A stretch of DNA of 64,000 bases, taken from positions 2,113,001 to 2,177,000 of the forward strand of contig NZ_JAIWOU010000001.1 in the NCBI RefSeq assembly GCF_021295395.1. Direction: 5' to 3'. The DNA is from Komagataeibacter sp. FNDCR2. Lineage in GTDB: Bacteria > Pseudomonadota > Alphaproteobacteria > Acetobacterales > Acetobacteraceae. A program made the translations under genes and the position numbers. Below the pieces are notes generated by a model. It saw only the letters and a list, made by a program, of their open reading frames with translations. It was not told where the DNA came from and made no database searches. Shown one piece after another: positions 10,298 through 30,200 of the stretch; within the stretch, counting starts at the first letter, position 1; each line of letters opens with the position of its first letter.

Positions 10298-10373
10298 AAG
10301 AAACGCTGGTTTCTGGAAAAAAGACGCCCCCCAAAAACCTTTTACTGCGTCTCAACCGCCGCGCACCGGGTAT

Positions 10374-14482: not shown

Positions 14483-14727
14483 TCCTGCTCTTTCACCGTG
14501 TGGACGTGTACCCGTTCCGCCTCCGTGCGGCGTAGGGCGAAGCGGGTGAACCCGATGCGTACCGCCAGCGGATCACCGCCCATGGGCGCGGTCGCGACAA
14601 CACGCACGGCCTCGCCCGGTACGAAACCGAGTTCACGCAAACGCCGTGCCACGGGGTCGGCGTTGTCCGGGTCGTCAACGCTGTCAATCACACCATCGGT
14701 GCCGCGTGGCAGGTCGCTCAGTCGCAT
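14479..14727 (-). CDS. feoA: FeoA SH3-like ferrous iron transport protein
   Basis: Protein of 82 residues, the usual FeoA size. Recognisable features are LSDLPRG at the start, ARRLRELGFVPGEAVRVVATAPMGGDPLAVRIG in the middle (quoted as two joined motifs, RRLRELGFVPGE and GDPLAVRIG) and a short basic end. FeoA is a small cytoplasmic SH3-like protein needed for FeoB function. It is first in the operon, and AT-rich sequence with a Fur-box-like element lies immediately upstream. Confidence 0.93.
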   Translation of the reverse strand: MRLSDLPRGTDGVIDSVDDPDNADPVARRLRELGFVPGEAVRVVATAPMGGDPLAVRIGFTRFALRRTEAERVHVHTVKEQE

Positions 14728-14756
14728 GGGTAAGACTTCATCCAGCCGATAAAAGT

Positions 14757-14782
14757 AAGTAATAATTATTATTAATTATTCA
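14757..14782. promoter_or_regulatory. Candidate Fur-type iron-responsive operator upstream of feoA
   Basis: AATAATTATTATTAATTATT at 14761-14780 is an AT-only, partly palindromic run in otherwise GC-rich DNA, about 35 bases before the feoA ATG. It resembles the repeated NAT(A/T)AT pattern of Fur boxes. An iron regulator site here would fit feo control. It also supplies an AT-rich promoter, so the two possibilities overlap. Confidence 0.45.
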
Positions 14783-14871
14783 TTGCAGTGCTGTCCATCA
14801 TGTTTATCCATTTGCCTGCACTGTTTCCGGGGCGGGTATGTTCAGCGCACATGCAGGACCGTTACTGTCCG

Positions 14872-16191
14872 TTATGGATGGGCGGATAATATATGGAAGA
14901 ACGTGCCCGATACATGCCCCCGCCGCGCGCCCCCCGCGCCGCGTTCGGCCCCGTATCCATCGCGCATGTCCGCAAGGGGCGTGTCGTTGCCTGGATCGGT
15001 GACGGTGGCGTAGTGGAATTCATGCCCGCGCAGGGTGGCGCCCGCGCGGCCTATGGCGCAGTCATGGCGCAGGGTGGCGGCGCGGTAGCCAAGGTTCATC
15101 CGGCGTGTGGCGAAGGACGTGGCATGGCCCAGCAGGCCGGTCATGCGATGGGTGTGGCCCGCTGCATCCGTCAGGCTTTCCCCCAGCACCATGAACCCCC
15201 CGCATTCCCCATGCACCGGCCGGGTGGTCGCGAAGCTGACCAGCGCGTGGCGGAAACGCGCCGCCGCCGCCAGTCGTCCCGCATGCAGTTCGGGGTAGCC
15301 GCCGGGCAGCCAGCAGGCATCGCAGTCTTCCGCCGGGCCTTCGTTACCGAGCGGGGAAAAGGAGTGGAGTTCCGCGCCCGCCGCGCGCCAGCCCGCCACG
15401 ATATGGGCATAGAGAAAGGAAAAGGCCGCGTCGTTCGCCACCGCGATCCGCTGTCCCGGCGGGGGCAGGGCGGGCGTTGCGGCCTGCGTAGCCGTGATGG
15501 CGGGCGCCCGGGCGCAGGCGAGGATGGCGTCAAGATCCAGATCGCGTTCGGCCTGCGTGGCCAGCCGGTCGGCCAGCGCGGCCAGCCCGTCATGCTCGCG
15601 CGCCTGGACCAGCCCCAGGTGGCGTTCGGGCATCTGAAGCCCCGCATCGCGCCCGAACGCGCCCACAACCGGAATTCCGGTGGCGGTAATGGCCTGTGTC
15701 GCCATGGCGGCGTGCCGGGGCGAGCCGACACGGTTCAGGATCACGCCCGCGATCCGCACCGACGGGTTCAGCCGGGCAAAGCCCAGCGCCACCGCCGCCG
15801 CCGACTGGCCCTGCCCCGAAATGTCCACAACCAGCAGTACGGGCAGCGCATAGCGCGCGGCAATGTCCGATGGCGCGCCGCGCGCGTTCTCCGGGCCCAG
15901 CAACCCGTCGAACAGCCCCATGGAGGCTTCCGTCACCAGCAGGTCACAGCCATGGGCGGCCTCTGCCATGATGGTGTCCAGCAGGGGGGCCGACATGGCC
16001 CAGCTATCAAGGTTGGGGCTGGCGTGGCCGGTCAGGGCTTCATGAAAGGCGGGGTCGATATAGTCCGGTCCGGTCTTGGCCCCGCGCACGGCAATGCCCC
16101 GGCGGCGCAGGGCGGCCAGAATGGCCAGTGTCAGCGTGGTCTTGCCGCTGCCCGAGCGGGGTGCGGCGATCATCAGCCCTCGTGTCATCAT
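14872..16191 (-). CDS. cobB: Cobyrinic acid a,c-diamide synthase (hydrogenobyrinate type)
   Basis: Protein of about 439 residues. N-terminal ATP-binding domain: MIAAPRSGSGKTTLTLAIL, then GAKTGPDYIDPAFH and LLVTEASMGLFDG. The C-terminal class I glutamine amidotransferase-like domain has ACWLPGGYPELHA and the nucleophile region RPVHGECGGFMVLG. The enzyme amidates side chains a and c, using hydrogenobyrinate in the aerobic pathway. The start at 16191 is preferred because AGGAAC lies seven bases upstream; 16227 is a longer in-frame option. It is the last minus-strand gene of the cluster and is divergent from cbiD with 68 bases between starts. Confidence 0.94.
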   Translation of the reverse strand: MMTRGLMIAAPRSGSGKTTLTLAILAALRRRGIAVRGAKTGPDYIDPAFHEALTGHASPNLDSWAMSAPLLDTIMAEAAHGCDLLVTEASMGLFDGLLGPENARGAPSDIAARYALPVLLVVDISGQGQSAAAVALGFARLNPSVRIAGVILNRVGSPRHAAMATQAITATGIPVVGAFGRDAGLQMPERHLGLVQAREHDGLAALADRLATQAERDLDLDAILACARAPAITATQAATPALPPPGQRIAVANDAAFSFLYAHIVAGWRAAGAELHSFSPLGNEGPAEDCDACWLPGGYPELHAGRLAAAARFRHALVSFATTRPVHGECGGFMVLGESLTDAAGHTHRMTGLLGHATSFATRRMNLGYRAATLRHDCAIGRAGATLRGHEFHYATVTDPGNDTPLADMRDGYGAERGAGGARRGHVSGTFFHILSAHP

Positions 16192-16259
16192 GTCCGTTCC
16201 TGCTAAACCGGTGGCGACCGGAGCCATTCCTTACCCTGCTGGAAAAGAAGACCTCTCAG

Positions 16260-17351
16260 ATGGAGCATACCCATACCAGCCTGCGCCGGGGCTGGACTAC
16301 CGGCAGTTGCGCCACCGCCGCCGCCCGCGCCGCATGGAGCAGCCTGTGCGGGCTGGGGTTTCCCGATCCCGTCACCATTACCCTGCCGGGTGGCCAGCGC
16401 GTGGCCTTCGCGCTGGCCGCCCATGGCCAGGAGGGGGATAGCGCATGGGCGGCGGTGGTCAAGGACGCGGGCGATGACCCGGACGTGACCCATGGCGCGC
16501 ATGTGCGCGTGGACGTGCGCCCGGCCCCACCGGGCAGCGGCGTCATTTTCCGCGCGGGCGCGGGGGTGGGCACCATCACGCTGCCGGGGCTGCCCCTGCC
16601 ACCGGGGGAGCCCGCGATCAATCCCGTGCCCCGCCGCATGATCCGCGCGGCGCTGCGGGAGGTGACGGGGCACGAGCCGGATGCGGAGGTGACGGTTTCC
16701 ATCGCGGGCGGGCAGGAAATGGCGCGCCATACGCTTAATGGCCGGCTGGGCATCGTGGGGGGGCTGTCCATTCTGGGCACCACCGGCATCGTGGTGCCGT
16801 TTTCCTGCGCCGCGTGGATCGACAGCATCCATCGCGGCGTGGACGTGGCCCGCGCGCTGGGGCTGGGGCATGTGGTGGGGTCAACGGGCAATGTGTCGGA
16901 ACAGGCGGCGCGCGCGCTGTATGGCCTGCCGCAGGAAGCCATGCTGGAAATGGGGGATTTTGCCGGCGGCCTGCTGAAATACCTGCGCACGCACCCGGTC
17001 GGGCGCGTTACGGTGGCCGGTGGCGTGGCCAAGATGACCAAGCTGGCGCAGGGGTTCATGGACCTGCATTCGCGCCGGGGGCAGGCCGACATGGCGCGTC
17101 TGGCCGATCTGGCGCGCATGGCGGGGGCCACGGCGGCGCTGGCGGCGCAGGTCGCGCAGGCCCATTCGGTCGCGGCGGCCTTCGCGCTGGCCCGGCAGGC
17201 CGGGGTTGACCTGGGCCCGCCCGTGGCGCGGGGCGCATGGGCACAGGCGCGCGCTGTGCTGGCGGGGGCTGACTGCTTGCTGGACGTGCTGCTGTTCGAC
17301 CGGGCGGGAAAGCTGGTGGCCCGGCATGGCCCCTGTCCCGTCACGGACTGA
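16260..17351 (+). CDS. cbiD: CbiD-type C1 methyltransferase of corrin biosynthesis
   Basis: Protein of 363 residues. The start, LRRGWTTGSCATAAARAA, is the CbiD signature. Further family motifs are TLPGLPLPPGEPAINPVPR, GLSILGTTGIV and GFAGGLLKYL-like sequence near 240. In the anaerobic pathway CbiD methylates cobalt-precorrin-5B at C1. Here it sits among aerobic-pathway genes and no cobF is seen, so it probably supplies the C1 methylation otherwise done by CobF. It is on the plus strand, opposite to its cluster neighbours, and its 3' end is 24 bases from the convergent cobM stop. Confidence 0.93.
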   Translation: MEHTHTSLRRGWTTGSCATAAARAAWSSLCGLGFPDPVTITLPGGQRVAFALAAHGQEGDSAWAAVVKDAGDDPDVTHGAHVRVDVRPAPPGSGVIFRAGAGVGTITLPGLPLPPGEPAINPVPRRMIRAALREVTGHEPDAEVTVSIAGGQEMARHTLNGRLGIVGGLSILGTTGIVVPFSCAAWIDSIHRGVDVARALGLGHVVGSTGNVSEQAARALYGLPQEAMLEMGDFAGGLLKYLRTHPVGRVTVAGGVAKMTKLAQGFMDLHSRRGQADMARLADLARMAGATAALAAQVAQAHSVAAAFALARQAGVDLGPPVARGAWAQARAVLAGADCLLDVLLFDRAGKLVARHGPCPVTD

Positions 17352-17375
17352 GGGCTGTGCGGCCGGGTGCCGGGG

Positions 17376-18128
17376 TCAGGAGCGGAAGCGACGGTGATAA
17401 TCCGCGTCATACAGCGCGCTTTCACGGAAATCCTCTGTGCCCAGCGCGGGGCCGACCAGCACCAGCGCCGTGCGTTCCACCGGGTTGCGGGCAAGCTGGT
17501 CGCCTATGGTGGCCAGCGTGCCGCGCAGCACGAGCTGGTCGGGCCACGTGGCGCGTGCCACGATGGCGACCGGGCAGTCCGCGCCGTAAAGCGGGATGAG
17601 TTCGGCTACGATCCGGTCCAGCACATGAATGGCCAGATGGATGGCCAGCGTGGCCCCGGTCGCGCCGAAGGCGGCCAGCTTCTCACGCTCCGGCATGGCG
17701 GAAGCCCGGCCGCTCACCCGCGTCAGCACCACGCTCTGCGCCACTTCCGGCACCGTCAGCTCCCGCCCCAGCACCGAGGCGGCGGCAGCGAAGGCGGGCA
17801 CGCCGGGTGTCATCGTCCATGGAATGCCGTGGCGGTCCAGCCTGCGGATCTGTTCGGCCACCGCGCTGTAAACCGACAGGTCGCCCGAATGCAGGCGCGC
17901 GATGTCCTGCCCCGCCGCGTGGGCCCTGATGTATTCCTGCTCGATCAGGTCCAGCGTAAGCGGCGCGGTGTCCACCAGCCGGGCATCGGGGGGGCAGTGT
18001 TCCAGCATTTCGGCGGGTACGATCGACCCCGCGTACAGGCAGACCGGGCACCGCGCCAGCAGGTCGCGCCCGCGAAGGGTCAGCAGGTCGGCGGCGCCGG
18101 GGCCCGCGCCGATGAAGTGTACGGTCAT
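17376..18128 (-). CDS. cobM: Precorrin-4 C11-methyltransferase
   Basis: Protein of 250 residues of the tetrapyrrole methylase superfamily. It starts [18 protein letters not shown], followed by [32 protein letters not shown] (the CobM-type SAM site) and [16 protein letters not shown]. It methylates C11 of precorrin-4. Its ATG overlaps the cobE stop by four bases (ATGA), so the two are co-translated. Confidence 0.95.
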
Positions 18129-18499
18129 GCGTCATCTCCCTGTGCCATGGCACATGTTGCGTGGGTGCCGGTCATGCGCGGCACGATCAGTCCTGAATGC
18201 GCGCCCGCCGCCGCCAGCGCGCAGCCTTCCGCCACCGAGGCCACGCCCACCGCCGCCTGCGCGCGCGCGGAACGGGTGACGCAGCGCGGCTGGGCGGCCA
18301 GCAGTTCGGCGGGCGTGACGGCGCGCAGCCTCAGGCCCAGATGGGCCATGGCCGCCTGCAACCCGGTCTCGCGGTAGCGGAAGGCGGGCACGGCCACAAG
18401 ATCCGCCTGCCGTCCGGCGCGCGCCTGCACGGCCCGGAGCAGGGCGATGATGTCGTGCATGTCGCACCCGCTGCGCAGGCCCAGCCCGGCCACGATCAT
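18125..18499 (-). CDS. cobE: CobE / CbiG C-terminal-domain protein
   Basis: Protein of 124 residues matching the C-terminal domain of CbiG, which in aerobic cobalamin producers stands alone as CobE. Seen: [19 protein letters not shown] at the start, a central [17 protein letters not shown] and an [20 protein letters not shown] segment, which matches the family's SVAEAAAL-type motif. CobE is required in aerobic synthesis but its chemical role is unclear. Four-base ATGA overlaps join it to cobL upstream and cobM downstream. Confidence 0.85.
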
Positions 18500-19746
18500 G
18501 GCCGCGCGCCCCCGGCCCGGTGGACGGCGTAGGTGGTGACCCCCATGCCGGGGCGGAAGGCGTGAAAACGCCCGATCGGCTCCAGATGCTCCACCTGCAT
18601 GCGGGTCAGCGTGCCGCCCCATTTCGCGTGCGCGGCCATGACCGCCGCCTCGCTTTCCAGCGTGACGGCATTGGCGACCAGCCGCCCATGGGCGGGCAGC
18701 ACCTGCCATGCCGCATCGAGCATGCCGGGATTGCTCACGCCACCACCAATGAAAACGGCGTCGGGCGGGGGCAATCCATCGGCCAGCATCTGGCGCAGGA
18801 TGTCGGGCGCGCTGCCAGCCACGACCCGCAGGGCCGGCACCCCGAGGTTGAGGGCGTTATGGGCGATCCGCGCGCCGCGCGTGGCGGATTTTTCAATGGC
18901 GATGGCGCGGTTGGCGGGGTGGCGCAGCATCCATTCAATGCCGATGGAGCCGGAACCGCCCCCAATATCCCACAGCATCTCCCCCCGGCGCGGGGCCAGG
19001 GCGGACAGGGTGGCGGCGCGGATTTCGCGCTTGGTGATCTGCCCGTCATGGGCGAACAGCCCGTCGGGCAGGCCACAGGCCAGCGGGATGACCAGTGCGT
19101 CACGGTCCGCCACGATCTCCAGCGCCATGAGGTTGAGCCGGGGCGGGAGCGGAGCGTCGTCTTCCGCCATCCGCGCGACCGTTGTGGTGTGGCGGGTCTG
19201 CCCCGGCCCGCCCAGCGCGCCGAGCACATGCATGACGGACGCCCCGAAACCACGCCCCAGCAGCCAGCGCGCGAAGGCTTGCGGCGTCCCTTCATCGGCG
19301 GACAGGACAACCAGCCTGCTCCCGGGTTGCAGGGCGGGGGCCACGGCTTCCATTGGGCGGCCGCACAGGGAATGGAGGCTGACATCCTGCTCCGCCCATC
19401 CCAGCAGGTTGCACGCCCGCGCCATGGCGGAGGGGGCGGGCAGGCAGGACATTTCCTCCATGGGCAGGTGGCGGCGCAGCGTGGCCCCGACCCCGAACAC
19501 GAACGGATCCCCCGACGCCAGTACGCAGACCGGCCGACCGCGCCAGCCCAGCAGTTCCCGCACGCCATCGGCAAACGGGTGCGGCCACGCCAGCGTGCGG
19601 CCCGTGATCAGCGGCGCAGCCAGCGCGAGATGGCGCGCGCCCCCCACCACAAGCGCCGCCGCCCCGATCAGGGCGCGCGTGGCGGCGGGCAACCCCTCGA
19701 CACCGTCTTCCCCAATGCCGATAACATGCAGCCATGGCGCATTCAT
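18496..19746 (-). CDS. cobL: Precorrin-6Y C5,15-methyltransferase (decarboxylating)
   Basis: Protein of 416 residues, a fusion of the CbiE-type and CbiT-type domains as in classical CobL. N-terminal CbiE part: HVIGIGEDGVEGL, VCVLASGDPFVFGVG. C-terminal CbiT part: DGQITKREIRAATLSAL, MLWDIGGGSGSIGIEWM as the SAM site, and FIGGGVSNPGMLDAAW. It methylates C5 and C15 and removes the C12 acetate carboxyl group. Its start is only 32 bases from the divergent cobK start, leaving little room for its own promoter, so it may depend on read-through from cobJ across cobK. Confidence 0.96.
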   Translation of the reverse strand: MNAPWLHVIGIGEDGVEGLPAATRALIGAAALVVGGARHLALAAPLITGRTLAWPHPFADGVRELLGWRGRPVCVLASGDPFVFGVGATLRRHLPMEEMSCLPAPSAMARACNLLGWAEQDVSLHSLCGRPMEAVAPALQPGSRLVVLSADEGTPQAFARWLLGRGFGASVMHVLGALGGPGQTRHTTTVARMAEDDAPLPPRLNLMALEIVADRDALVIPLACGLPDGLFAHDGQITKREIRAATLSALAPRRGEMLWDIGGGSGSIGIEWMLRHPANRAIAIEKSATRGARIAHNALNLGVPALRVVAGSAPDILRQMLADGLPPPDAVFIGGGVSNPGMLDAAWQVLPAHGRLVANAVTLESEAAVMAAHAKWGGTLTRMQVEHLEPIGRFHAFRPGMGVTTYAVHRAGGARP

Positions 19747-19778
19747 GCGCCGACCACCGGCAGGGAAAAGGGGAAGGG

Positions 19779-20549
19779 ATGCGGGTTCTCGTTCTGGGCG
19801 GCACGACGGAGGCCCGCATGCTGTACGGCCTGCTGGAAGGGCAGATGGCGCGCTTTGAAGTCACGGTCTCGCTGGCCGGGGCCACGCGCGCGCCGGTCCT
19901 GCCCGCGCTGGAGGTCCGCATCGGCGGGTTTGGCGGCGTGGAGGGCCTGCGGGCGTGGCTGGTGGCGCACCGCATCGACGCCGTGGTGGACGCGACGCAT
20001 CCCTTCGCCGTACAGATGAGCGGCAATGCGGTACAGGCCTGCGCGCAGGCGGGTGTCTGCCTGCTGCGGGTGGAGCGCCCGGGCTGGACGCCGGTGGCGG
20101 GCGACCGCTGGACCATCGTGCCCGACATGGCGGCCGCGGCCCGCGCGCTGGGCACGACCCCGCGCCGCGTGCTGCTGACGGTGGGGCGCAAGGATCTGCT
20201 GCCGTTCCGGGATGCGGGGCCACATGACTGGCTGCTGCGCAGCGTGGACCGGCCCGACGCCAGCCTGCTGCCGCCCGGCGCGCGGGTGGTGCAGGCGCGC
20301 GGCCCCTTTGACGCGGCAGCGGAGGAAACCCTGCTGCGCACCGGGCGGATCGGGGTGATCGTGACCAAGAATTCCGGCGGCACCGCAACAGCGGGCAAGC
20401 TGGCCGCAGCCCGCGCGCTGGGGGTGGAGGTGATCATGGTGGCCCGCCCCCCGGTCGCACCCGCCGCCGTGGTGCCCGACGCGCTGGCCGCCATGGCGTG
20501 GCTGGAGCGGCTTTACGCGCACGGGGCATCCACCCGGCGGGAAGTGTAA
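19779..20549 (+). CDS. cobK: Precorrin-6A reductase
   Basis: Protein of 256 residues. It has the NADPH-binding start VLVLGGTTEARMLYGLL, then AVVDATHPFAVQMS, VGRKDLLPFRDAGPHDWLLR, and GVIVTKNSGGTATAGKL, all typical of CobK. It reduces precorrin-6A to precorrin-6B. The start at 19779 is preceded by GGGAAGGG. It is on the plus strand between cobJ and cobL, which are both minus-strand, and overlaps the cobJ 3' end by 37 bases tail to tail. Confidence 0.95.
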   Translation: MRVLVLGGTTEARMLYGLLEGQMARFEVTVSLAGATRAPVLPALEVRIGGFGGVEGLRAWLVAHRIDAVVDATHPFAVQMSGNAVQACAQAGVCLLRVERPGWTPVAGDRWTIVPDMAAAARALGTTPRRVLLTVGRKDLLPFRDAGPHDWLLRSVDRPDASLLPPGARVVQARGPFDAAAEETLLRTGRIGVIVTKNSGGTATAGKLAAARALGVEVIMVARPPVAPAAVVPDALAAMAWLERLYAHGASTRREV

Positions 20550-21286
20550 AGCCATTTTTCCCCATCCGCCCGGGTGATGACATGGGTCAGCGGGCAGCCG
20601 ATCAGAACCAGCGTGCTCATATCCACCTGTTCGGGGTCGGCATGGGTGATGTCGGTCAGGATGACCCGCTCATCCACCCGCCCGATGGCGCGGGCGAAGG
20701 CGACCGGCACCGTGCCGGGCAGGATGGTGCGCAACAGGTCGAAGGCTTCCCCCAACTGGTCCGGGCGCGCTTTCGAACGCGGGTTGTACAGCGCGATCAC
20801 CAGCCCCGCCCGTGCCGCGGCCGCCAGCCTGCGATGGACCACTTCACGCGGCTTGAGGTTGTCGGACAGGGAAATGACGCAGAAATCCCCCCCCAGCGGC
20901 GCGCCCAGACGGGCGGCGGCGGCCAGCACGGCGGAAACGCCGGGAATGACCGTGACATCCACTTCGCGCCATGCGGCGGGGCCATGGTCAATCGCCTCGA
21001 ACACCGCGCTGGCCATGCCGAATACGCCCGCGTCCCCGCCGGATACGACCGCCACGCTCCGCCCCGCCAGCGCCAGTTCCACCGCATGGCGGGCGCGCTC
21101 GATCTCCACGCGGTTGTCACTGGCATGGCGCACCACGTCCGGACCCGCCTCGACACGGGCGACATAGGGGGCGTAACCGATCAGGTCGGTCGCCTGCGCC
21201 AGCGCCATGGCGGCCTGCGGGGTCAACTGGTCCACGTTGCCGGGGCCAAGCCCGACGATGAAGATACGGCCCGTGCCGGCGGTCAT
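20513..21286 (-). CDS. cobJ: Precorrin-3B C17-methyltransferase
   Basis: Protein of 257 residues. Family motifs are IFIVGLGPGNVDQLTPQA, DLIGYAPYV, VAVVSGGDAGVFGMASAV, FCVISLSDNLKPREVV and LVIALYNPRSKARPDQL. It methylates C17 and contracts the ring. The start overlaps the cobI stop by four bases (ATGA). Its last 37 bases lie opposite the end of cobK. Confidence 0.96.
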   Translation of the reverse strand: MTAGTGRIFIVGLGPGNVDQLTPQAAMALAQATDLIGYAPYVARVEAGPDVVRHASDNRVEIERARHAVELALAGRSVAVVSGGDAGVFGMASAVFEAIDHGPAAWREVDVTVIPGVSAVLAAAARLGAPLGGDFCVISLSDNLKPREVVHRRLAAAARAGLVIALYNPRSKARPDQLGEAFDLLRTILPGTVPVAFARAIGRVDERVILTDITHADPEQVDMSTLVLIGCPLTHVITRADGEKWLYTSRRVDAPCA

Positions 21287-22008
21287 CGTGCCGCCTCCCG
21301 GCCGGGGACGAGGATGATGGAGAAATAGGGGGCTGGCCCCTTCATGTCCGTCAGCTTCATGCAGCGCTGCTGCGGCTGTGTCGCGCGTTCGACATAGATC
21401 GCCCGCTCCTCGCGCCCGGCACGGCGCAGGGCGGTGCGCACTTTTTCAAGGTTGCGGCCCAGCTTCATGATGACGGCGGCATCCGCCTGCTCCAGCCGTG
21501 TGGTCAGGGTGTCCTCATCCAGCGTGCCGGGAATGACGCTCAGCACGTCATCCCCATGCACCATGGGGCGCTGCGCGGCGGACCAGCAGCCCGCCATGGC
21601 GGTAATGCCCGGTACCACCGTGCAGGTGAAACGCGGGTGCAGGCGGTCGAAAACATACATGGCCGAGCCGAACAGGAACGGATCCCCCTCGCACAGCAGG
21701 GCGACATCCCGCCCGGCCAGCAGATGGGTTGCGACATGTTCGGCGCACTCGTCGTAAAACGCGGCCATGCGGACCAGATAGGCGGGATCGCATAGCGGGA
21801 CTTCCGTGGTGAACGGATAGGCGAAGCGCAGCCCCACCGCGTGGGGGGAGAGCATGTCCCCCGCGATCTGGCGGGCATGGCCGGGCCGGTCGTGGCGGCA
21901 GAACCACGCCGCCACCGTCGCTTCACGCAGCAGGCGCGCGGCCTTTACGGTCATGAGTTCGGGATCCCCCGGCCCCATGCCGAGGATGGACAGGTGGCCG
22001 GGTGTCAT
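21283..22008 (-). CDS. cobI: Precorrin-2 C20-methyltransferase
   Basis: Protein of 241 residues. It has LSILGMGPGDPELMTVKAA, VALLCEGDPFLFGSAMYV (SAM-binding loop) and VVPGITAMAGCWSAAQ, as in CobI. It methylates precorrin-2 at C20. The start and stop overlap neighbouring genes cobH and cobJ by four bases each, continuing the coupled cobG-cobH-cobI-cobJ series. Confidence 0.95.
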   Translation of the reverse strand: MTPGHLSILGMGPGDPELMTVKAARLLREATVAAWFCRHDRPGHARQIAGDMLSPHAVGLRFAYPFTTEVPLCDPAYLVRMAAFYDECAEHVATHLLAGRDVALLCEGDPFLFGSAMYVFDRLHPRFTCTVVPGITAMAGCWSAAQRPMVHGDDVLSVIPGTLDEDTLTTRLEQADAAVIMKLGRNLEKVRTALRRAGREERAIYVERATQPQQRCMKLTDMKGPAPYFSIILVPGREAAR

Positions 22009-22646
22009 TCCGCCTCGCTCGCCAGCGCGTTGACGGTGGCCGCCGCCATGGCGCTGCCCCCCAGCCGCCCCCGCACAATGATGAAGGGCAGGTCACCGAA
22101 CGCGGCAAGTGCTTCCTTGGATTCAGCAGCCCCCACGAAGCCCACCGGCATGCCGATCACCGCCGCCGGGCGCGGCGCGCCCGCGCGGATCAGTTCCAGC
22201 AGGTGGAACAGCGCCGTGGGCGCGTTGCCGATGGCGACGACCGCCCCCGCCAGATCATCGCCCCACAGATCCATGGCCGCCGCCGAACGGGTATTGCCGA
22301 TTACCCTGGCGATGTCGGGCGTGCGCGGGTCGCGCAGGGTGCAGATGACCGGGTTGTCGGCAGGCAGGCGCGCGCGGGTGACGCCATGGGCGACCATGTT
22401 CGCATCGCACAGCACCGGCCGCCCGGCCACAAGGGCGGCGCGCGCGCTGGTGACGAAATCGGGCGACATGTGGATGGCCTTCGTCACATCCACCATGCCG
22501 CAGGCATGGATGATGCGTACGACCACGCGCGCTTCCTCGGCGCTCAGTCCGTCCAGATCGGCTTCGGCGCGGATAATGGCGAAGGAACGGGCATAGATCG
22601 CCGCCCCGTCATGGATGTAGTCGTACGGTTCCGTTTGCGCGGTCAT
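22005..22646 (-). CDS. cobH: Precorrin-8X methylmutase
   Basis: Protein of 213 residues. Seen: YIHDGAAIYARSFAIIRAEA, VVRIIHACGMVDVTKAIHMS (the histidine in RIIHACGM is the catalytic one), DANMVAHGVTRARLPADN and AVIGMPVGFVGAAESKEAL. It moves the methyl group from C11 to C12 to give hydrogenobyrinate. The start at 22646 overlaps the cobG stop (ATGA). Confidence 0.96.
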   Translation of the reverse strand: MTAQTEPYDYIHDGAAIYARSFAIIRAEADLDGLSAEEARVVVRIIHACGMVDVTKAIHMSPDFVTSARAALVAGRPVLCDANMVAHGVTRARLPADNPVICTLRDPRTPDIARVIGNTRSAAAMDLWGDDLAGAVVAIGNAPTALFHLLELIRAGAPRPAAVIGMPVGFVGAAESKEALAAFGDLPFIIVRGRLGGSAMAAATVNALASEAE

Positions 22647-23878
22647 GCCGGTCCAGTTCTCCCGTTCCGTGGCGTGGTGTCCTGATGCTGCGGGGTCCAG
22701 CCCCGCACGATCGGATGTATCTGTGCCAGTGAAAGCCCGATGTCTACAGGCGTATCGTCCGCCCGGCCATGCGGGCACAGGGCATAGCCCTGCGCCTGCG
22801 CCACCAGCGTGATGTCGGCGCGCGCCGGGTGGGCGCATCCCTTGGTGCAGCCCGAAACATGCAGGCTGACCCCATCGGGCAGGTCGGGCGCCAGATCCAT
22901 CGCGTCCGCCACCACGTCGCGTGCGGCGCATGCGCAGCCCCGCGCGCCGATGCACGCCCATACGCGCAGGCGCGGGTCGTCCGCGCGGGTGATGAGGGCG
23001 TCAACGGGGGGTGGGGCCGCGCAGTCTTCCAGCACGACCGTGCGCCACGGGCCGATGCGCATATGCCCGTTGCCCGCGCTGTCGGCCCATCGCGCCACGG
23101 CTTCGAGCACGCTGGCGTCGATCGGGCCGGGGGGCAGGACCGCGCCCATGGCGTGGCCGGGCAGGGGACCGGCCAGCGGGGGCGCATGCGGGCCTGTGGC
23201 CGGGGCGGGACGGGTGGCGTCCAGCAGCCCGGCGCGGGCGAAGGCCGCGCGTGCCCGCGCCGGATCGCGCACGGTGCGCGCCGGGGGTTCCATGGCCGCG
23301 AGCGCATGGGCCAGCGACAGGACGATGGCGGCGACTTCCGCGCCCGCGCAGGAACAGGCCCGATCCCCACACGCCACCAGCCAGCCGCCGCCCTCGGCCC
23401 GCGCCACGATATCCGCCCGCAGCGTGCCCGCCGGGACATACCCGCCGCAATCGACCGCGATCAGGAACTTGGCGGGCAGGCCGCGTAACGTATCGGCGCC
23501 GGCAAGGGCGGCATCCAGCGCGCGGATGACATCTGGCGCGTCCGGCGCGGCCTGTGGGTCGATCCCGGCCAGAGGGGAGAGCAGCAGGCCACGCCGCGCC
23601 TCGGTCGCGGCATCTGCGCTGGCCAGCCCGGCATTGCCCATGTCGCGGGCGAAGGCGCGCGCGCTGTCGGGGGTCAGGCCGCGCAGTTGCAGGTTGCCCC
23701 GGCTGGTCAGTTCGATCAGCCCGTTGCCATACTGGCGGGCCGCCCGTGCGATGTGGCGGGCCTGCGCGGTGGACAGGCGGCCCAGCGGCGGGCGCACGCG
23801 CACCAGCCAGCCATCGGCGGCCTCCATGGGGGTGTGCAGGCCGGGGCACCAGCCGCGTATGCCGGGGGGTACGGTCAT
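22643..23878 (-). CDS. cobG: Precorrin-3B synthase (O2-dependent)
   Basis: Protein of 411 residues of the sulfite/nitrite-reductase-like family. The N-terminal half has GLIELTSRGNLQLRGL, the ferredoxin-like repeat. The C-terminal half contains cysteine groups CIGARGCACAARDVV and VSGCTKGCAHP for the 4Fe-4S cluster. CobG uses O2 to hydroxylate precorrin-3A and form the lactone before ring contraction. Its presence marks the aerobic route. It overlaps cobN and cobH by four bases on either side. Confidence 0.94.
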   Translation of the reverse strand: MTVPPGIRGWCPGLHTPMEAADGWLVRVRPPLGRLSTAQARHIARAARQYGNGLIELTSRGNLQLRGLTPDSARAFARDMGNAGLASADAATEARRGLLLSPLAGIDPQAAPDAPDVIRALDAALAGADTLRGLPAKFLIAVDCGGYVPAGTLRADIVARAEGGGWLVACGDRACSCAGAEVAAIVLSLAHALAAMEPPARTVRDPARARAAFARAGLLDATRPAPATGPHAPPLAGPLPGHAMGAVLPPGPIDASVLEAVARWADSAGNGHMRIGPWRTVVLEDCAAPPPVDALITRADDPRLRVWACIGARGCACAARDVVADAMDLAPDLPDGVSLHVSGCTKGCAHPARADITLVAQAQGYALCPHGRADDTPVDIGLSLAQIHPIVRGWTPQHQDTTPRNGRTGPA

Positions 23879-26800
23879 GGCGCGGGGTCAAGCAGCAGGG
23901 CGGCGCTGTTGCTGCGCGGCCGCCACAGGTCGCGCCGCATGGCGTCGGCCAGCAGGCGGCGGATGGCGGCGTGGGCGTCGGGATTGGTTTCGCGCATGAA
24001 GGCATCCATTTCCGGGTCATCAAGCAGGGCGGCGAAGGTCAGGTCGAACTGCCGGTCGAAGCGCGCGGGCACGGTCGCGGCAAAGCCATGCAGCGCCGCC
24101 ATGCCGCGCGCGATCTCGGCCGTGCCGCGATAGCCGTGGCGGCGCATGCCCGCAAGCCATGCCGGGTTGGCCAGCCGCCCGCGCACCACCCGGGCCACTT
24201 CCTGCGCCGTGGCGCGCAGGCGCGGGGTTTCGGGGCGGGAAGTATCGCCATGCAGCAGGCGGGGCGCATTGCCCAGCATGTCCGCCGCCGCCGCCATGCC
24301 GCCTTCATGCGTGGCCATGTCGGCGCTTTCGAGAATATCGGTTTCGGCATGGTCCTGCACATGCAGCAGCACGCCGGCCTGCGCCATGCGCTGGGCCAGC
24401 GCCTGCGCGTCCTGCCCGCCTTCGCGCCCGCCGCCATAGGTCCATGCCGAACCGTCCAGCCATGCCTGCCCCAGTTCGGCGGGCGTGCGCCACGCGCCAC
24501 TGGCCAGCGGGTCTTCCACGCCGGTGCCGTAGGCGCCGGGGGCCGCGCCAAACATGCGCGCGGTCGCGGCGCGGCGGGCTTCGGCCTGTAGCCCGGCGGT
24601 GCTGGCGGCCAGCGGGTTGAGGTCGGGCGCTTCGAAATCACGTTCGGCCACGGCCTGCACCGCCTGTTCGAACAGGGCGATCTGGCCGGGGAATGCATCA
24701 CGGAACAGGCCGGACAGGCGCAGCGTCACATCCACGCGCGGGCGGCCCAGCTCGGCCATGGGAATGATCGTGATGCCGCTGACCCGGCCCGATGCGCCAT
24801 CCCATACCGGGCGCACCCCCATGAGCAGCAGGGCCAGGGCCAGATCCTCGCCCCCCGTGCGCAGGCTGGCCGATCCCCACAGGTCGATGACAAGGCTGCG
24901 CAGCGGCTCGCCCTGATCCTGCAGATGCCCCTCCAGCAGCACGGCCGCCGTGCGTTCGGCCAGTACCAGCGCCGAACGGGTGGGAATGGCGCGCGGATCC
25001 GTGGCGTACAGGTTGCGCCCGGTGGGCAGCACGTCGGCGCGGCCGCGCGTGGGCGCGCCCGCCGGACCCGCGGGAATGAACCGGCCATCAAGGGCCGCGA
25101 GCAGCGCATGGCGTTCCGCCCCGCCGCATTCATGCAGGCGGGTGGCGATCGCGTCGGGCGCGACGCCGCCGCACGAGCGCGCGATGGCCCGCGCCAGTTC
25201 GCCCGCGCGCGGGGGCGGGTGGCCAAACACATGCAGCCCGTCGCGGATCTGCAGATCCTTGACATCACACAGATAGGCATCGAGCCGGGCGAGGGCCTCG
25301 TCCTCGTCATCGGTGCGGGTCATGCCGCTTTCGCCCAGCAGGCCGATACTGTCGGCGCGTTGCAGGATCTCGCCGCGCAGGATCGCCCCGCGCCTGCGGT
25401 CCAGGCCGTCGGCGGCGGCATATTCATCAATCAGGCGTTCCAGTTCGCCCGTATCCGCCCCGGATGTCCCGGCGGGCACGATGGGGGGCGTCATGTGGCC
25501 GATGGTGACCGCCCCCAGCCTGCGCCGCGCTGCGCAGGCCTCACCGGGATTGTTGACGATAAACGGGTAGATCACCGGCAGCCCGCCCACCAGAACCGAT
25601 GGCCAGCATGTGGCGGAGGGGGCCGCCGCCTTGCCGGGCAGCCATTCCAGCGTGCCATGTGTGCCCAGATGTACCATGGCGTGCAGACCGGCGTCATGGC
25701 GCAACCACAGGTAGAAGGCGACATAGGCATGCCGGGGTGGGGTGTCGGGATCATGGTACCCGGCATGGCGGTCGCCGGTTGCGCCACGGTCGGGCTGGAG
25801 CGCCATCAGGACATGCCCCGCCCGCAGGTGGCGCAGGTGGAACTGGCCGCCCATGCATGCTGGGTCGTCTTCCGGCGCGCCCCAGCAGGCGGCCAGTGCA
25901 TCCCGCAGGTGCGTGGGCAGCGCGTCCAGCCACTGGCGATAGGTGGCCACGGACACGAAGGGGCGCGCGGGCGCGCGGACCAGTGCATGGGCAAGCTGTT
26001 CCGCGTTGGGGAGGGGGGACGCACCCGTGTCGTACCCCGCCCCGCGCAGCAGGTGGAGGATGTGTTCAAGGCTTGCGAAACTGTCCAGCCCCACGGCATG
26101 GGCGGCCTGCCCGGTGGGCACGCCCTGCGCGCCGGGATAGTCGGACAGGATGATGCCGACCCGCCGCGCGGCGGGCGCGGTATGCCCCAGCCGCGCCCAT
26201 CCCGCCGCGCGGGCGCAGGTCAGTTCTATGCCGGGGGCGTAGGGCGCATGGCGGGGCGGCAGGTCGGGGGCCGTTTCCTCCTTGAAGGAGATGGGGCAGG
26301 CGGGAATGCGGCCATCGAGTTCGGGCAGCACCACCTGCATCGCCAGATCCGCCTGCGACAGTCCGCGCGTGCTGTCGCGCCATGTCGCGTGGGCGATGCC
26401 GGGCTGCTGCGCCTGCAACACGGGCACCCCCGCCAGATCGAGCGGGGAATGGCTGTCCGGCCCGCCTTGCGTGGAAAAGAAGGTGGCGTTGACGATGACA
26501 TCGGGCGGGGCCTGCGCGATCCGCGCCGTCACCACCCGGGCCGAAGCCGGATCCTTGAGCGACGTGACATAAAGCAGGTCCGCCCCGATGCCCTGGCGCG
26601 CCAGTCCGGTGGCCAGCGCCGTAATGGGGGCGATGTCACCGGCCAGCAGGTGCGCGCGGTAGAACACCACCATCGCGCGCAGGGGCAGGGCGGGGTCCGC
26701 CGCGTGCAGCAGGTCCGCCGCGGGAAGTTCCACGGGCTGGACGCCGTCATCCGCCCCGCGCCCGGCCAGATGCGCCATGAGCCGCAGGGCGGTGGCCATG

Positions 26801-27246
26801 TTCGCACTCCCGCCCGTGCGCAGCAGGCGCTCAAGCCGGGCGAGCAGGTCGTCCGCCACGGTGGACAGCCGGGCAAGGCGGGGGTCGTCACGCCCGTCAC
26901 CGGCGACGAAGGCCAGCGCAATCCCGGCCTCCCGGCAGGCGCGGGCCAGTTCCTCCGCCCCGTAGCGCCAGTATTCCACCCCCCCGAGCAGCCGGACCAC
27001 CACGCAGCGCGATTCCATGATGGTGCCGGCTACGTACAGGTCGATGGACATGGGATGCAGCAGTCGCGACAGGCTGGCGGTGCGCAGGCTCGCGCCGGGG
27101 GCGGCCTGTGCCCCATGCGCGGCGTTCAGGCACAGCAGGTCGCTGTCCGAAAAGGACAGGAACACGATATCCGCCGGGGCATGCCCCAGATCTTCCGCCT
27201 GATCGCCGTCATCCAGCGTGCGCACCTCACGTGCCAGCAGATGCAT
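23875..27246 (-). CDS. cobN: Cobaltochelatase large subunit CobN
   Basis: Protein of 1123 residues, in the range of CobN. Seen: MVVFYRAHLLAGDIAPITAL near the first third, DVIVNATFFSTQGGPDSHSP-like region, MVHLGTHGTLEWLPGKAAA in the middle (the characteristic HLGTHGTLEWLPGK motif), and YRGTAEIARGMAALHGFAA close to the C-terminus. CobN, with CobS and CobT, inserts cobalt into hydrogenobyrinate a,c-diamide at the cost of ATP. cobS and cobT are not in this window. cobN follows cobW by 36 bases and overlaps cobG. Confidence 0.97.
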   Translation of the reverse strand: MHLLAREVRTLDDGDQAEDLGHAPADIVFLSFSDSDLLCLNAAHGAQAAPGASLRTASLSRLLHPMSIDLYVAGTIMESRCVVVRLLGGVEYWRYGAEELARACREAGIALAFVAGDGRDDPRLARLSTVADDLLARLERLLRTGGSANMATALRLMAHLAGRGADDGVQPVELPAADLLHAADPALPLRAMVVFYRAHLLAGDIAPITALATGLARQGIGADLLYVTSLKDPASARVVTARIAQAPPDVIVNATFFSTQGGPDSHSPLDLAGVPVLQAQQPGIAHATWRDSTRGLSQADLAMQVVLPELDGRIPACPISFKEETAPDLPPRHAPYAPGIELTCARAAGWARLGHTAPAARRVGIILSDYPGAQGVPTGQAAHAVGLDSFASLEHILHLLRGAGYDTGASPLPNAEQLAHALVRAPARPFVSVATYRQWLDALPTHLRDALAACWGAPEDDPACMGGQFHLRHLRAGHVLMALQPDRGATGDRHAGYHDPDTPPRHAYVAFYLWLRHDAGLHAMVHLGTHGTLEWLPGKAAAPSATCWPSVLVGGLPVIYPFIVNNPGEACAARRRLGAVTIGHMTPPIVPAGTSGADTGELERLIDEYAAADGLDRRRGAILRGEILQRADSIGLLGESGMTRTDDEDEALARLDAYLCDVKDLQIRDGLHVFGHPPPRAGELARAIARSCGGVAPDAIATRLHECGGAERHALLAALDGRFIPAGPAGAPTRGRADVLPTGRNLYATDPRAIPTRSALVLAERTAAVLLEGHLQDQGEPLRSLVIDLWGSASLRTGGEDLALALLLMGVRPVWDGASGRVSGITIIPMAELGRPRVDVTLRLSGLFRDAFPGQIALFEQAVQAVAERDFEAPDLNPLAASTAGLQAEARRAATARMFGAAPGAYGTGVEDPLASGAWRTPAELGQAWLDGSAWTYGGGREGGQDAQALAQRMAQAGVLLHVQDHAETDILESADMATHEGGMAAAADMLGNAPRLLHGDTSRPETPRLRATAQEVARVVRGRLANPAWLAGMRRHGYRGTAEIARGMAALHGFAATVPARFDRQFDLTFAALLDDPEMDAFMRETNPDAHAAIRRLLADAMRRDLWRPRSNSAALLLDPAP

Positions 27247-27282
27247 GGTGGCTACCCCGTTTCGCTGCCGCTTCCCCGCGCT

Positions 27283-28335
27283 TTACGCCTGCGCCAGCGC
27301 GGCCGCAATGGCGGCGTGGTCCATGCCCTTGCACCCGATCACCACCAGGTCGCCCGTGCGCGGCGCATCCTTGGCGAGGGGACGGTCGAACTGGTGGCGG
27401 AAGCGGCTGCCCACGCCCTGTACCGCCAGCCGCATCGGCTTGCCGCGCACGGTGGCGTACCCCTTCATGCGCAGGATGTCGTGCTGTTCGGCCAGCGCCT
27501 TCAGGCGGTCGATGAAGCCCTCCACGCTGTCCTGTTCGGGAAGGGGAAGGACGAAGCTTTCAAAATCATCATGTTCATGTTCGCCGCCTTCCGCATCATG
27601 GTGGGAAGGGCGCGCGGCCAGGTCATCTTCCGCCGCCGCGTCAAGGCCGAGCAGGATGGCCGGATCCACCTGCCCGTCGGTCGCGCGCACGATCTTGACG
27701 GCGCGCGGCACCTCGGCGCGGATGGCGGTCTCCACCGTGTCGGCCTGCGCGGGGGTCAGCAGGTCCGACTTGTTCAGCACGATCAGGTCGGCGCACAGAA
27801 GTTGGTCCTCATACACTTCGGCCAGCGGGTTGTCGTGGTCGAGGGAGGGATCCGCCGCCTGCTGGCGCGCGACCTCCGCCGGGTCATCGGCAAAGCGGCC
27901 ACCGGCCACGGCGGGACCGTCCACCACCGTCACCACGCCATCCACCGTCATGCGGGTGCGGATGGTGGGCCAGCCGAACGCCTTGAGCAGCGGCTTGGGC
28001 AGCGCCAGCCCCGATGTCTCGATCACGATATGGTCGGGTGGGGTCGGGCGGTCGAGCAGGGCTTCCATGGTGGGCAGGAAGTCGTCCGCCACGGTGCAGC
28101 ACAGGCAGCCATTGGTCAGTTCGACAATATCGTCATCACCGCAGCCTTCGATGCCACAGGCGCGCAGCGTGTCGCCATCAATGCCCAGCGTGCCGAATTC
28201 GTTCACGACAATGGCGATGCGCCTGCCCCGGGCATTGGCCAGCACATGGCGCAGCAGCGTGGTCTTGCCCGCGCCCAGAAAGCCGGTGATGACGGTAACG
28301 GGCACCTTGGCGCGCGCCGTGGCGGAAGTGTTCAT
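27283..28335 (-). CDS. cobW: CobW-type zinc/cobalt GTPase metallochaperone
   Basis: Protein of 350 residues in the COG0523 family. G1 is TGFLGAGKTTLLRHVL, the metal-binding CxCC motif is in ELTNGCLCCTV, G3-like region is ETSGLALP, and G4 is LNKSDLL. A His/Asp/Glu-rich stretch SHHDAEGGEHEHDD near residue 250 is an additional metal-binding feature. The C-terminal CobW domain contains DILRMKGYATV. CobW is thought to deliver cobalt for cobaltochelatase, and its position directly before cobN supports this. It lies five bases after the DUF1636 gene. The start at 28335 has GGAG upstream. Confidence 0.95.
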   Translation of the reverse strand: MNTSATARAKVPVTVITGFLGAGKTTLLRHVLANARGRRIAIVVNEFGTLGIDGDTLRACGIEGCGDDDIVELTNGCLCCTVADDFLPTMEALLDRPTPPDHIVIETSGLALPKPLLKAFGWPTIRTRMTVDGVVTVVDGPAVAGGRFADDPAEVARQQAADPSLDHDNPLAEVYEDQLLCADLIVLNKSDLLTPAQADTVETAIRAEVPRAVKIVRATDGQVDPAILLGLDAAAEDDLAARPSHHDAEGGEHEHDDFESFVLPLPEQDSVEGFIDRLKALAEQHDILRMKGYATVRGKPMRLAVQGVGSRFRHQFDRPLAKDAPRTGDLVVIGCKGMDHAAIAAALAQA

Positions 28336-28340
28336 GGCGA

Positions 28341-28751
28341 TCAGGCTCCAGAAAAAAGGGAAGCGGGAAAGCGTCCGCGCACCATGTCCGACAGGCTGGC
28401 CGGGCGGCGCGAGGGCATGACGGTACCACTGCGTGACGTGGCGTAGGCGGCGATGTAGGTAAGCAGGTCCGCCGCCTTCTCCGGGCCGAGACCCGCCAGC
28501 AGCCAGCCCCATTTGCCTGGCGTGGCGACCACGGCGGCACAACCGCTGTCACACATGGCCAGGCAGTTGACCGCATGCACCACGATTTCCGGGTTGCCGG
28601 TAGCCAGCGCGGCCAGCGCATCGTGCAACTGGCGGCCCTGCGGGCTGTCCGACGCGGGCAGGCCACGGCGGCAGGTCACGCAGACATGCACATGCACGGG
28701 TGACACGTCCGGTGGCCGTTGCGCTGGCGGCTGTTGCGTGGGTGTGCTCAT
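28341..28751 (-). CDS. DUF1636-type, probably 2Fe-2S thioredoxin-like, protein
   Basis: Protein of 136 residues. Cysteines in VHVCVTCRRG and NCLAMCDSGCAAVV give the arrangement of ferredoxin-like thioredoxin-fold proteins (DUF1636). This family is often found in cobalamin gene clusters near cobW. The function is unproven; an electron-transfer or metal role in cobalamin synthesis is a guess. It is the first gene after the cobalamin riboswitch, with a 172-base leader between, and is followed closely by cobW. The ATG at 28751 has GGAGC immediately upstream, which is an unusually tight spacing. Confidence 0.8.
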   Translation of the reverse strand: MSTPTQQPPAQRPPDVSPVHVHVCVTCRRGLPASDSPQGRQLHDALAALATGNPEIVVHAVNCLAMCDSGCAAVVATPGKWGWLLAGLGPEKAADLLTYIAAYATSRSGTVMPSRRPASLSDMVRGRFPASLFSGA

Positions 28752-28923
28752 GCTCCATGCCCTTTCGCGGCATTGCTGCGCGCAGGCAGCCATACAAGGC
28801 GGGGTGCATGGTGACACGGCGCCACGCCGCGCGGGAACGGCGGGTGGCCCATCGCGTGCCGGGCACCCCGCCAGCCATGCGATCAGATTCGGTTCCGGCC
28901 CGGCCATGATGGTATGGCGCGGC

Positions 28924-29130
28924 GCCTGATGGCAGGTCTCCTGACTTGTGGCGCAGGGGTGAACCCCTCATTCCGGCGGCCTTCCCGGCCCCGGGATCCG
29001 GGACCAGTGACACTACCAGCCCCGTGGCGGGGCGGGCCGGAAAACAGCCACCTACAGTTGCGGGGGCAGTGACGGCCTTGCCCGTGGGCGCACCGTCTTC
29101 CCTATTCTCCCGGTGAAGGGAACCATCAGG
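28924..29130 (-). promoter_or_regulatory. Cobalamin riboswitch
   Basis: Read on the minus strand, the segment contains GTCACTG and GCAACTGTAGGTGG-like core sequence and, near its 3' end, the B12 box AGTCAGGAGACCTGCC (about 28933-28948). GC-rich arms between them match the aptamer's paired stems. It precedes the DUF1636-cobW-cobN series and should lower its expression when adenosylcobalamin is abundant. I could not decide whether control is by termination or by blocking translation. Confidence 0.93.
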
Positions 29131-29160
29131 CGCGGATTTAGACGATTGTGCGCCCCCCTG

Positions 29161-29712
29161 TCAAAGACCGTCCGGCGGCGCGCCGGTCATGGCCACGCGC
29201 CACGTCGCGTGGCGTGTCAGCACCGTGCGGCTGCGGGGCGCGATATCCAGATGCGACAGCATGCGGGCCGTACCGCCAAGGGCCGCGACCACGATGGCCC
29301 TGACCACCGTGGCGTCGGCCAGCGCGCTCAGGCGGGGCGGGGTGGGGGGAAGTGCCGCCAGCCACACCGCCACGCGGTGCAGGAGTTCCGTCCGGCTTTC
29401 CCCGCCGGGCGGCGCGAAGTCGGGGTCGGAAACCCAGCGCGCCAGATCGGCGGCGGGCAGGTCACGAAGCGCGCGGCCCCGCCATTCCCCCATGGCGGCC
29501 GCGCGTAGGGCGGGGGCAGGGTGGAACGGGCCGGTCATGCCGTGGGGGGGCGATTCGGGCGGCCACGACTCGATAGGCAGCAATGTCAGGTCGGCATCGG
29601 GCAGGTGGGCCGGAACATCCGCCCCCAGGCCGGGGGACGTCCCATCGGGGAAGATACCCCGGCGCAGGCAGTCGGGCGCGGGCAGGGCAAGGCAGGTCAG
29701 GATCTGGTGCAT
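29161..29712 (-). CDS. Histidine phosphatase superfamily homologue lacking catalytic histidines
   Basis: Protein of 183 residues. The second half, MGEWRGRALRDLP, DPDFAPPGGESRTELLHRV and ATVVRAIVVAALG, follows the histidine phosphatase (phosphoglycerate-mutase-like) pattern common near cobalamin genes. The residues normally carrying catalysis are changed. The N-terminal RHG/HA motif region reads CLALPAPDCLRRG, and the second histidine position reads ALADATVVRA where THAAVVRA-like sequence is usual. It is thus probably not an active phosphatase; a binding role or early decay is possible. It stands upstream of the riboswitch, on the same strand, and may end close to where the riboswitch transcript begins. 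Confidence 0.65.
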   Translation of the reverse strand: MHQILTCLALPAPDCLRRGIFPDGTSPGLGADVPAHLPDADLTLLPIESWPPESPPHGMTGPFHPAPALRAAAMGEWRGRALRDLPAADLARWVSDPDFAPPGGESRTELLHRVAVWLAALPPTPPRLSALADATVVRAIVVAALGGTARMLSHLDIAPRSRTVLTRHATWRVAMTGAPPDGL

Positions 29713-29884
29713 CAACAGGCGCCCCGCGTGTGGGGAAAGGGTGAGGTCCGCAATGTGACGATTGACCTTCCAGGCTGATTATTGGAAACATGACGCCAGA
29801 TCCGGTTATGGACGGGTGTGGCACGCCATGCCATGGTCCATGCATACTGCTCCGGGTCGTGCCTGATCCATGGAGTTTTCCAGT

Positions 29885-30109
29885 ATGAGCCAAGATACAT
29901 CCGCCCTGTCCGCCGGTCGCATCGCCGCACCGCAGGTTTCCATCCCGGTTCGCGACCTGCTGCCGTGGGGTGTGTTCGGGCTGGTTCTGGCCTCGCTGCT
30001 GCTTTACTTCGTCGGGGCCGAACAGGGGGCGACCTCGCTCGTATCGGGCCATTACGTGCATGAATTCGTGCATGACGGCCGCCACCTGCTGGGCTTCCCC
30101 TGCCACTGA
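29885..30109 (+). CDS. cbtB: Cobalt transporter subunit CbtB-like membrane protein
   Basis: Protein of 74 residues with one membrane segment (LLPWGVFGLVLASLLLYFVG) and the histidine-rich C-terminal motif HYVHEFVHDGRHLLGFPCH. The HEFxHDxRHxxGxPCH pattern is the CbtB signature and probably binds cobalt. CbtB usually precedes cbtA, but no cbtA follows here; the next gene is the unrelated acuI. The ATG at 29885 is preferred because GGAG lies about ten bases before it; another ATG is at 29870. No cobalamin riboswitch is visible directly upstream. Confidence 0.87.
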   Translation: MSQDTSALSAGRIAAPQVSIPVRDLLPWGVFGLVLASLLLYFVGAEQGATSLVSGHYVHEFVHDGRHLLGFPCH

Positions 30110-30164
30110 TCCGCGCGGGCCGGTAGGGCGCGGGGCCCCAGCGCCCCATGCGCCGCCCTGATTA

Positions 30165-30200
30165 CTGAACGGCATTTCCGGTGGGAAATGCCGTTTTTCG
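30165..30200. terminator. Bidirectional terminator between cbtB and acuI
   Basis: AACGGCATTTCC (30168-30179) pairs perfectly with GGAAATGCCGTT (30184-30195) around GGTG and is followed by T's. Flanking CTGAAC/GTTCAG extends the stem. It can serve both convergent genes. Confidence 0.9.

Follow-up and report, generated by a model that had tools for sequence, protein, structure and literature searches.

Conserved tail-to-tail overlap of an opposite-strand cobK with cobJ in the cobalamin cluster of Komagataeibacter sp. FNDCR2

Genes and features of the cluster

The window analysed here is a stretch of 64,000 nucleotides from Komagataeibacter sp. FNDCR2 (contig NZ_JAIWOU010000001.1, positions 2,113,001 to 2,177,000), and it carries a cobalamin biosynthesis (cob) cluster. 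A minus-strand series of cob genes, headed by a cobalamin riboswitch, is interrupted by two plus-strand genes, cobK and cbiD, and the end of cobK overlaps the end of cobJ. An earlier note, made from the letters of the window, had named these genes and placed them on their strands; family profile matches confirmed the identities, positions and strands. The cluster consists of the following features.

28914-29142, minus: cobalamin riboswitch (RF00174; Rfam 99.1 bits, full model), heading the minus-strand series
28341-28751, minus: DUF1636 protein gene, putative start (PF07845, E 8.8e-22), first gene after the riboswitch
27283-28335, minus: cobW (PF02492 and PF07683; scanned as 27283-28350)
23875-27246, minus: cobN (PF02514, 904.8 bits)
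22643-23878, minus: cobG, precorrin-3B synthase (TIGR02435, 237.4 bits against a cut-off of 234.8)
22005-22646, minus: cobH, precorrin-8X methylmutase (NF006136 above cut-off; scanned as 22005-22652)
21283-22008, minus: cobI, precorrin-2 C20-methyltransferase (TIGR01467 and NF004647 above cut-off)
20513-21286, minus: cobJ, precorrin-3B C17-methyltransferase (TIGR01466 above cut-off; 3nut, E 4.7e-67)
20513-20549: tail-to-tail coding overlap of cobJ and cobK, 37 bases, each stop codon lying within the other gene
19779-20549, plus: cobK, precorrin-6A reductase (NF005968 and TIGR00715 above cut-off; 4x7g, E 1.9e-61)
19747-19778: spacer separating the diverging genes cobL and cobK, 32 bases
18496-19746, minus: cobL, CbiE and CbiT fused (TIGR02467 and TIGR02469 above cut-off)
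18125-18499, minus: cobE, CbiG_C domain (PF01890, 74.3 bits; scanned as 18125-18520)
17376-18128, minus: cobM, precorrin-4 C11-methyltransferase (TIGR01465 above cut-off)
16260-17351, plus: cbiD, C1-methyltransferase (TIGR00312 above cut-off), with 24 bases between its end and the cobM stop
14872-16191, minus: cobB, a,c-diamide synthase, putative start (NF002204 above cut-off; scanned from 16227)

The earlier note let the series run from the riboswitch directly into cobW. The riboswitch stood, as the sole Rfam match at gathering score in the window and one of three in the whole genome; the first gene had to be corrected, the DUF1636 gene having been omitted and 28751 being its likely start. 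Of 18 congeners, 17 likewise have a cobalamin riboswitch match towards the head end of the contig that carries the cluster, the G016 contig being cut. Five congeneric genomes (G009-G012 and G015) contain 10-17 such matches each, partly clustered within tens of kilobases, against the 3 here (stricter filters).

Four-base overlaps occur at six junctions of the minus-strand series (cobN/G, G/H, H/I, I/J, L/E and E/M), in keeping with what had been predicted for most of them; cobW and cobN are instead separated by 36 bases. For cobB, the first ATG in frame is at 16227 and would leave a gap of 32 bases to cbiD. Translation probably begins at the ATG at 16191, 68 bases from cbiD, because the surrounding sequence, with a stretch resembling a ribosome-binding site, is kept in congeners. 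No protein of the genome scored above the CobF cut-off, and the best weak match sits in cobI. With CobG and CbiD (16260-17351) together and no CobF above cut-off, the pathway looks mixed; we take CobG to belong to the oxygen-dependent route and CbiD to the anaerobic-type route.

The reversed cobK in other genomes

Gene order was read in 117 cobK loci, namely the window, 31 from relatives, 80 from named Genome Taxonomy Database (GTDB) genomes (the best 80 of at least 547 confirmed) and five from annotated plasmid records. The order cobL(-) cobK(+) cobJ(-) was found in 97 of them, mostly alphaproteobacterial. Judged by record titles, the 97 include Acetobacteraceae, Mesorhizobium, Rhizobium, Bradyrhizobium, Methylobacterium, Rhodobacterales, Sphingomonas and Azospirillum and, outside Alphaproteobacteria, Rhodoferax, Acidovorax, Ectothiorhodospira, Thioalkalivibrio and one Polyangiaceae assembly. 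As for the other 20 loci, four read cobL(+) cobK(+) cobJ(-) and one cobM(+) cobK(+) cobJ(-), these five being actinobacterial by title (Nocardia, Rhodococcus, Mycobacterium). Three have cbiD(+) cobK(+) beside cobM(-), and the remainder have different, partial or unrecognised neighbours. Among the matches listed, the closest named relative was Komagataeibacter oboediens, with a CobK 84% identical.

These counts are not independent: L065 is of the same species as L035, and the pairs L134/L146 and L133/L149 look like near-duplicates. Since the loci were picked by similarity to the window CobK and many share ancestry, the 97 represent one old arrangement and not 97 events. Even with this shared ancestry, a pattern recurring in 97 of 117 loci exceeds what chance would be expected to give. 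Judged from gene order, the layout is an old and widespread form of the alphaproteobacterial cobalamin cluster and not peculiar to the window genome; in this form cobK, and often cbiD too where it has been retained, is reversed relative to the genes on either side.

The window cluster thus belongs to the known alphaproteobacterial cob clusters. Set against the aerobic-type order (DUF1636-cobW-N-G-H-I-J-K-L-E-M-B), it has cobG, N, H, I, J, K, L and M in order, with cobK reversed and a B12 riboswitch at the head. In all five annotated plasmid records (Methylorubrum, Acidiphilium, Paracoccus, Sinorhizobium meliloti and Azospirillum) cobK lies opposite cobJ; cobL is unannotated in the S. meliloti record and was found there by tblastn. 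Plasmids p242883 of Paracoccus saliphilus and pACMV1 of Acidiphilium multivorum show the same order with the reversed cobK, and their annotated positions give tail overlaps of cobJ and cobK of 34 and 25 bases, respectively. Both differ from the window in that cobF is annotated and the cobM-cobB interval lacks a reversed cbiD, whereas the window has cbiD and no CobF above cut-off.

The cobJ/cobK overlap

The overlap of 37 bases, together with a distance of 32 bases between the starts of cobK and cobL, had been claimed by the earlier note, and both figures were exact. Among the 97 loci, the two coding sequences overlap in 79, that is in 66 of 77 outside the genus and in 13 of 20 inside it (L065 repeating L035). 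One locus, L079, was excluded from the overlap counts and kept in the denominator, its value of -1947 being a stop-finding artefact. L026, whose translation held a stop, was omitted from alignment A2. Overlap lengths range from 4 to 67 bases, 37 being common, and outside the genus 65 of 66 are equal to 1 modulo 3, so that the third codon positions face each other. Both partners are real genes, relatives of CobK and CobJ having solved structures, and the overlap is kept in distant species.

In 75 of the 79 overlapping loci, the stop codon of cobK falls, in antisense, on a tyrosine codon of cobJ. This tyrosine mostly belongs to a Y-[TSA]-x-R motif (YTPR-like) near the end of CobJ: the residue after the covered codon is T in 58/79, S in 4/79 and A in 4/79, and an R stands three places on in 70/79. 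Read in antisense, this motif accounts for the usual CobK terminus, R-x-V before the stop (V in 58/79, R in 67/79). The coding overlap also means that the messages of cobJ and cobK must themselves overlap.

Tail-to-tail overlaps have been surveyed before. A survey of 58 species lists 1218 convergent overlaps of at least 5 bases, of which 18% are in the (123:213) phase (PMC2174442). The cobJ/cobK pair is likewise tail-to-tail, and its phase, one of three described there, is read as (123:213); it differs in that 65 of the 66 overlaps outside the genus share this phase, through shared ancestry. A second study reports that, among convergent overlaps longer than 60 bases which may be real, conservation is for the most part limited to very closely related species (PMC2478687), whereas the shorter cobJ/cobK overlaps are kept across orders. 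Searches of the open-licence literature yielded no report of the cobJ/cobK overlap or of cobK antisense transcription, the original Pseudomonas denitrificans papers not having been sought.

A tail-to-tail overlap of cbiD and cobM was observed in 21 of 36 loci outside the genus, with lengths of 10-58 bases and 20 of the 21 in the cobJ/cobK phase (e.g. L149, 7503-7536). Because this junction shows the same phase, a G+C-rich sequence may account for the phase as such. The unusual points of the cobJ/cobK overlap, as far as sequence comparison tells, are its persistence and its lock to a protein motif. A possible RNA hairpin across the overlap, with arms GGCTTTAC...GTAAAGCC, was rejected, its fold z-score of -0.96 being nothing special.

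Congeners without the overlap and the intergenic repeat

In 7 of 19 congeners, cobJ and cobK lie 82-117 bases apart and the spacer holds a 77-base hairpin repeat. In a tree built from seven cob proteins, these congeners group together. As the overlapping tail is absent there, the CobK tail is dispensable in these congeners. Folded together with its flank, the repeat reaches about -35 kcal/mol and forms an outer stem with two hairpins (z -5.5 on one strand and -5.8 on the other); its shape suggests that it could act as a terminator at the cobJ/cobK junction.

The repeat was also characterised on its own account. It is a genus-specific intergenic element of about 77 bases, with an outer 10-bp stem around two hairpins, and the window copy lies at 10265-10345. 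Copies are found at cobM/cbiD or cobJ/cobK junctions of congener loci (e.g. L036, L042 and L045-L051), in both orientations between convergent cob genes. Its core, GAAGCTTTTTNNAAAAAGCTTC, occurs 33 times in the window genome and 33-205 times in 16 searched genomes of the genus, up to two mismatches being allowed; it was absent from 9 genomes of other families, and a reversed control pattern gave 0 matches. Searched with the full element, a single further genus of the family (G022) yielded two weak matches. Directly beside the window copy, at 10211-10248, a strong hairpin followed by a run of eight T, resembling an intrinsic terminator, was seen by eye.

Spacing between cobK and cobL

With starts picked by a simple rule, the gap between the divergent cobK and cobL has a median of 32 bases over the 97 loci and is below 40 in 73 and below 60 in 86. 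All 19 congeners share a length of exactly 32 bases, despite 18 distinct sequences with a mean identity of 55%. Such a gap is too short to hold ordinary promoters for both genes, so that the promoters would lie within the partner gene or cobL would be fed by read-through. An overlap of the messages is very likely on this side of cobK also.

One account of these junctions would be that the genes are ordinary adjacent transcription units without functional cross-talk: an inherited strand pattern and neutral packing in a G+C-rich genome, with negligible antisense effects. The seven congeners whose CobK lacks the overlapping tail fit this account, as does the second junction, cbiD/cobM, where the same packing has arisen. 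It does not readily explain why the cobJ/cobK overlap persists across orders, nor why the cobK-cobL gap is of fixed length in congeners while those of cobN-cobW (31-139 bases, n=17) and cobB-cbiD (32-67 bases, n=16) vary, although alignment ends were used for the latter two and the variation may be partly due to trimming. We consider this account the most unlikely of those examined.

Possible transcription across cobK

In the earlier note, the cluster had been compared to the noncontiguous operon of Staphylococcus, with the whole of cobK transcribed antisense if cobL-cobE-cobM depend on the riboswitch. The S. aureus genes menE-menC-MW1733-ytkD-MW1731 are described as including an opposite-strand gene embedded among genes of one strand (PMC7154746), and the window has the same geometry. 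Co-transcription of the flanking genes and reciprocal regulation are only predicted for the window cluster, whose embedded cobK, in a further difference from the S. aureus men genes, also overlaps the cobJ coding sequence. The geometry and the overlap of the cobJ and cobK messages thus held good, the latter through the coding overlap; for read-through over cobK and cbiD, the comparative data point both ways. In such an operon, one transcript started at the riboswitch would pass through cobK, and perhaps cbiD, and express cobL-E-M (and cobB), while collision of polymerases and cutting by ribonuclease III would limit both messages. The order cobJ-cobK-cobL kept in 97/117 loci speaks for this model, for which the S. 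aureus men genes offer a precedent.

Further support comes from two scans. No minus-strand terminator-like site was called in 14400-30200, where nine sites, all on the plus strand, were found against 4.4 expected (standard deviation 2.2), several being one stem recounted. However, the scan was blank at the cobB end too, which makes its silence uninformative. In addition, B12 boxes were searched with a pattern allowing one mismatch, for which 0.38 matches per 20 kb are expected by chance over both strands. A minus-strand box was present upstream of cobJ in 74/97 loci, some perhaps by chance, and none was found within cobK, cobJ or the cobK-cobL gap in the 97 loci. The pattern matched the minus strand at another 15 places, within cobL or downstream of it. 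Five plus-strand matches inside cobL-cobK-cobJ (L072, L079, L082, L083 and L112), taken as candidate riboswitches, were rejected, as no Rfam match at gathering score accompanied them.

Against the model stands, first, the antisense-cobK stretch itself, which amounts to about 800 untranslated bases in a cell whose genome contains a Rho gene. On the minus strand, the C/G ratio of the RNA is 1.22 over cobK and 1.25 over cbiD, compared with 0.92-1.07 over the ten minus-strand genes measured. Second, the hairpin repeat occupies the junction in the seven congeners. Third, Commensalibacter has cobJ on the opposite strand to the cobL-cobM block, at a distance of about 13-14 kb, so that cobL cannot be fed from cobJ there; the AT-rich stretch of 334 bases that separates cobL from cobK gives cobL room for its own promoter. 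Finally, low B12 would bring more antisense RNA to cobK exactly when CobK is needed. A riboswitch transcript crossing cobK (and cbiD) is possible but demanded by none of the results; no test of membership of the noncontiguous operons that was made here failed. As the means by which cobL-E-M are expressed, we regard such a transcript as a tentative explanation only.

The congener repeat, the Commensalibacter split and the untranslated stretch in a cell with Rho led us to favour separate promoters. On balance it is just probable that cobL-E-M and cobB are expressed mainly from promoters of their own, with some leak-through and mutual overlap of messages and with no obligatory long operon. The riboswitch transcript would comprise DUF1636-cobW-N-G-H-I-J and would mostly stop in the untranslated antisense-cobK stretch, probably through Rho. 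The promoters of cobL-E-M and of cobB would lie mainly in the 5' portions of cobK and cbiD, leak-through from upstream would add some supply, and neighbouring messages would overlap mutually at their 5' and 3' ends. At the tails, cobJ and cobK messages that each reach their stop codon would share at least 37 complementary bases, as the coding sequences dictate. The overlap may persist because the antisense of the CobJ end motif gives the CobK stop and codons near the CobK end give the CobJ stop: since each gene would supply the stop codon of the other, the two do not easily separate.

Several results weigh against separate promoters with termination in cobK. A scan for sigma-70-like promoters found a single site in the region, downstream of cobB, against 1.4 expected, and no internal promoter. 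Synonymous-site conservation in up to 19 congeners revealed no promoter footprint: the highest value, 3.72 inside cobE, stayed under the 95% maximum of the shuffled data, 3.82, and the 5' ends of cobK and cobL, at 2.71 and 2.85, fell below the shuffled maximum (median 3.33). In the consensus terminator scan of L046 (9 sites against 8.7 expected), the hairpin repeat was left uncalled. With no B12 box in cobK or the gap, cobL-E-M would stand outside B12 riboswitch control if they had their own promoter. The C/G ratio is only weakly raised over the 97 loci (medians of 1.01 for cobK, 0.96 for cobJ and 0.95 for cobL), cobK exceeding cobJ in 54/97 and cobL in 62/97, a weak effect. In Commensalibacter, the minus-strand genes behind cobK encode a DUF1348 protein and a kinase-like protein, and these may feed cobL.

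Significance

The explanations were ranked with separate promoters and leak-through first, the noncontiguous operon second and the absence of functional cross-talk last. A further proposal extends the operon to many orders: in most Alphaproteobacteria that have this cluster, riboswitch transcripts would run antisense over cobK as far as cobL-E-M. The stop-in-motif overlap and the short, fixed spacing would then persist through pairing of sense and antisense RNA at either end of cobK, which would keep CobJ, CobK and CobL of the one pathway in balance. We find this doubtful. If the long antisense message were real, a riboswitch operon would act by antisense on a gene of its own pathway across many orders.

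The conserved tail overlap is more interesting than the noncontiguous-operon reading. Even without the long message, a convergent overlap kept across orders, with the stop codon of one gene provided by a terminal motif encoded in its partner, makes a clear natural case of overlap lock-in. The cobJ/cobK loci also provide a large comparative set in which read-through, Rho and the effects of overlap may be tested.

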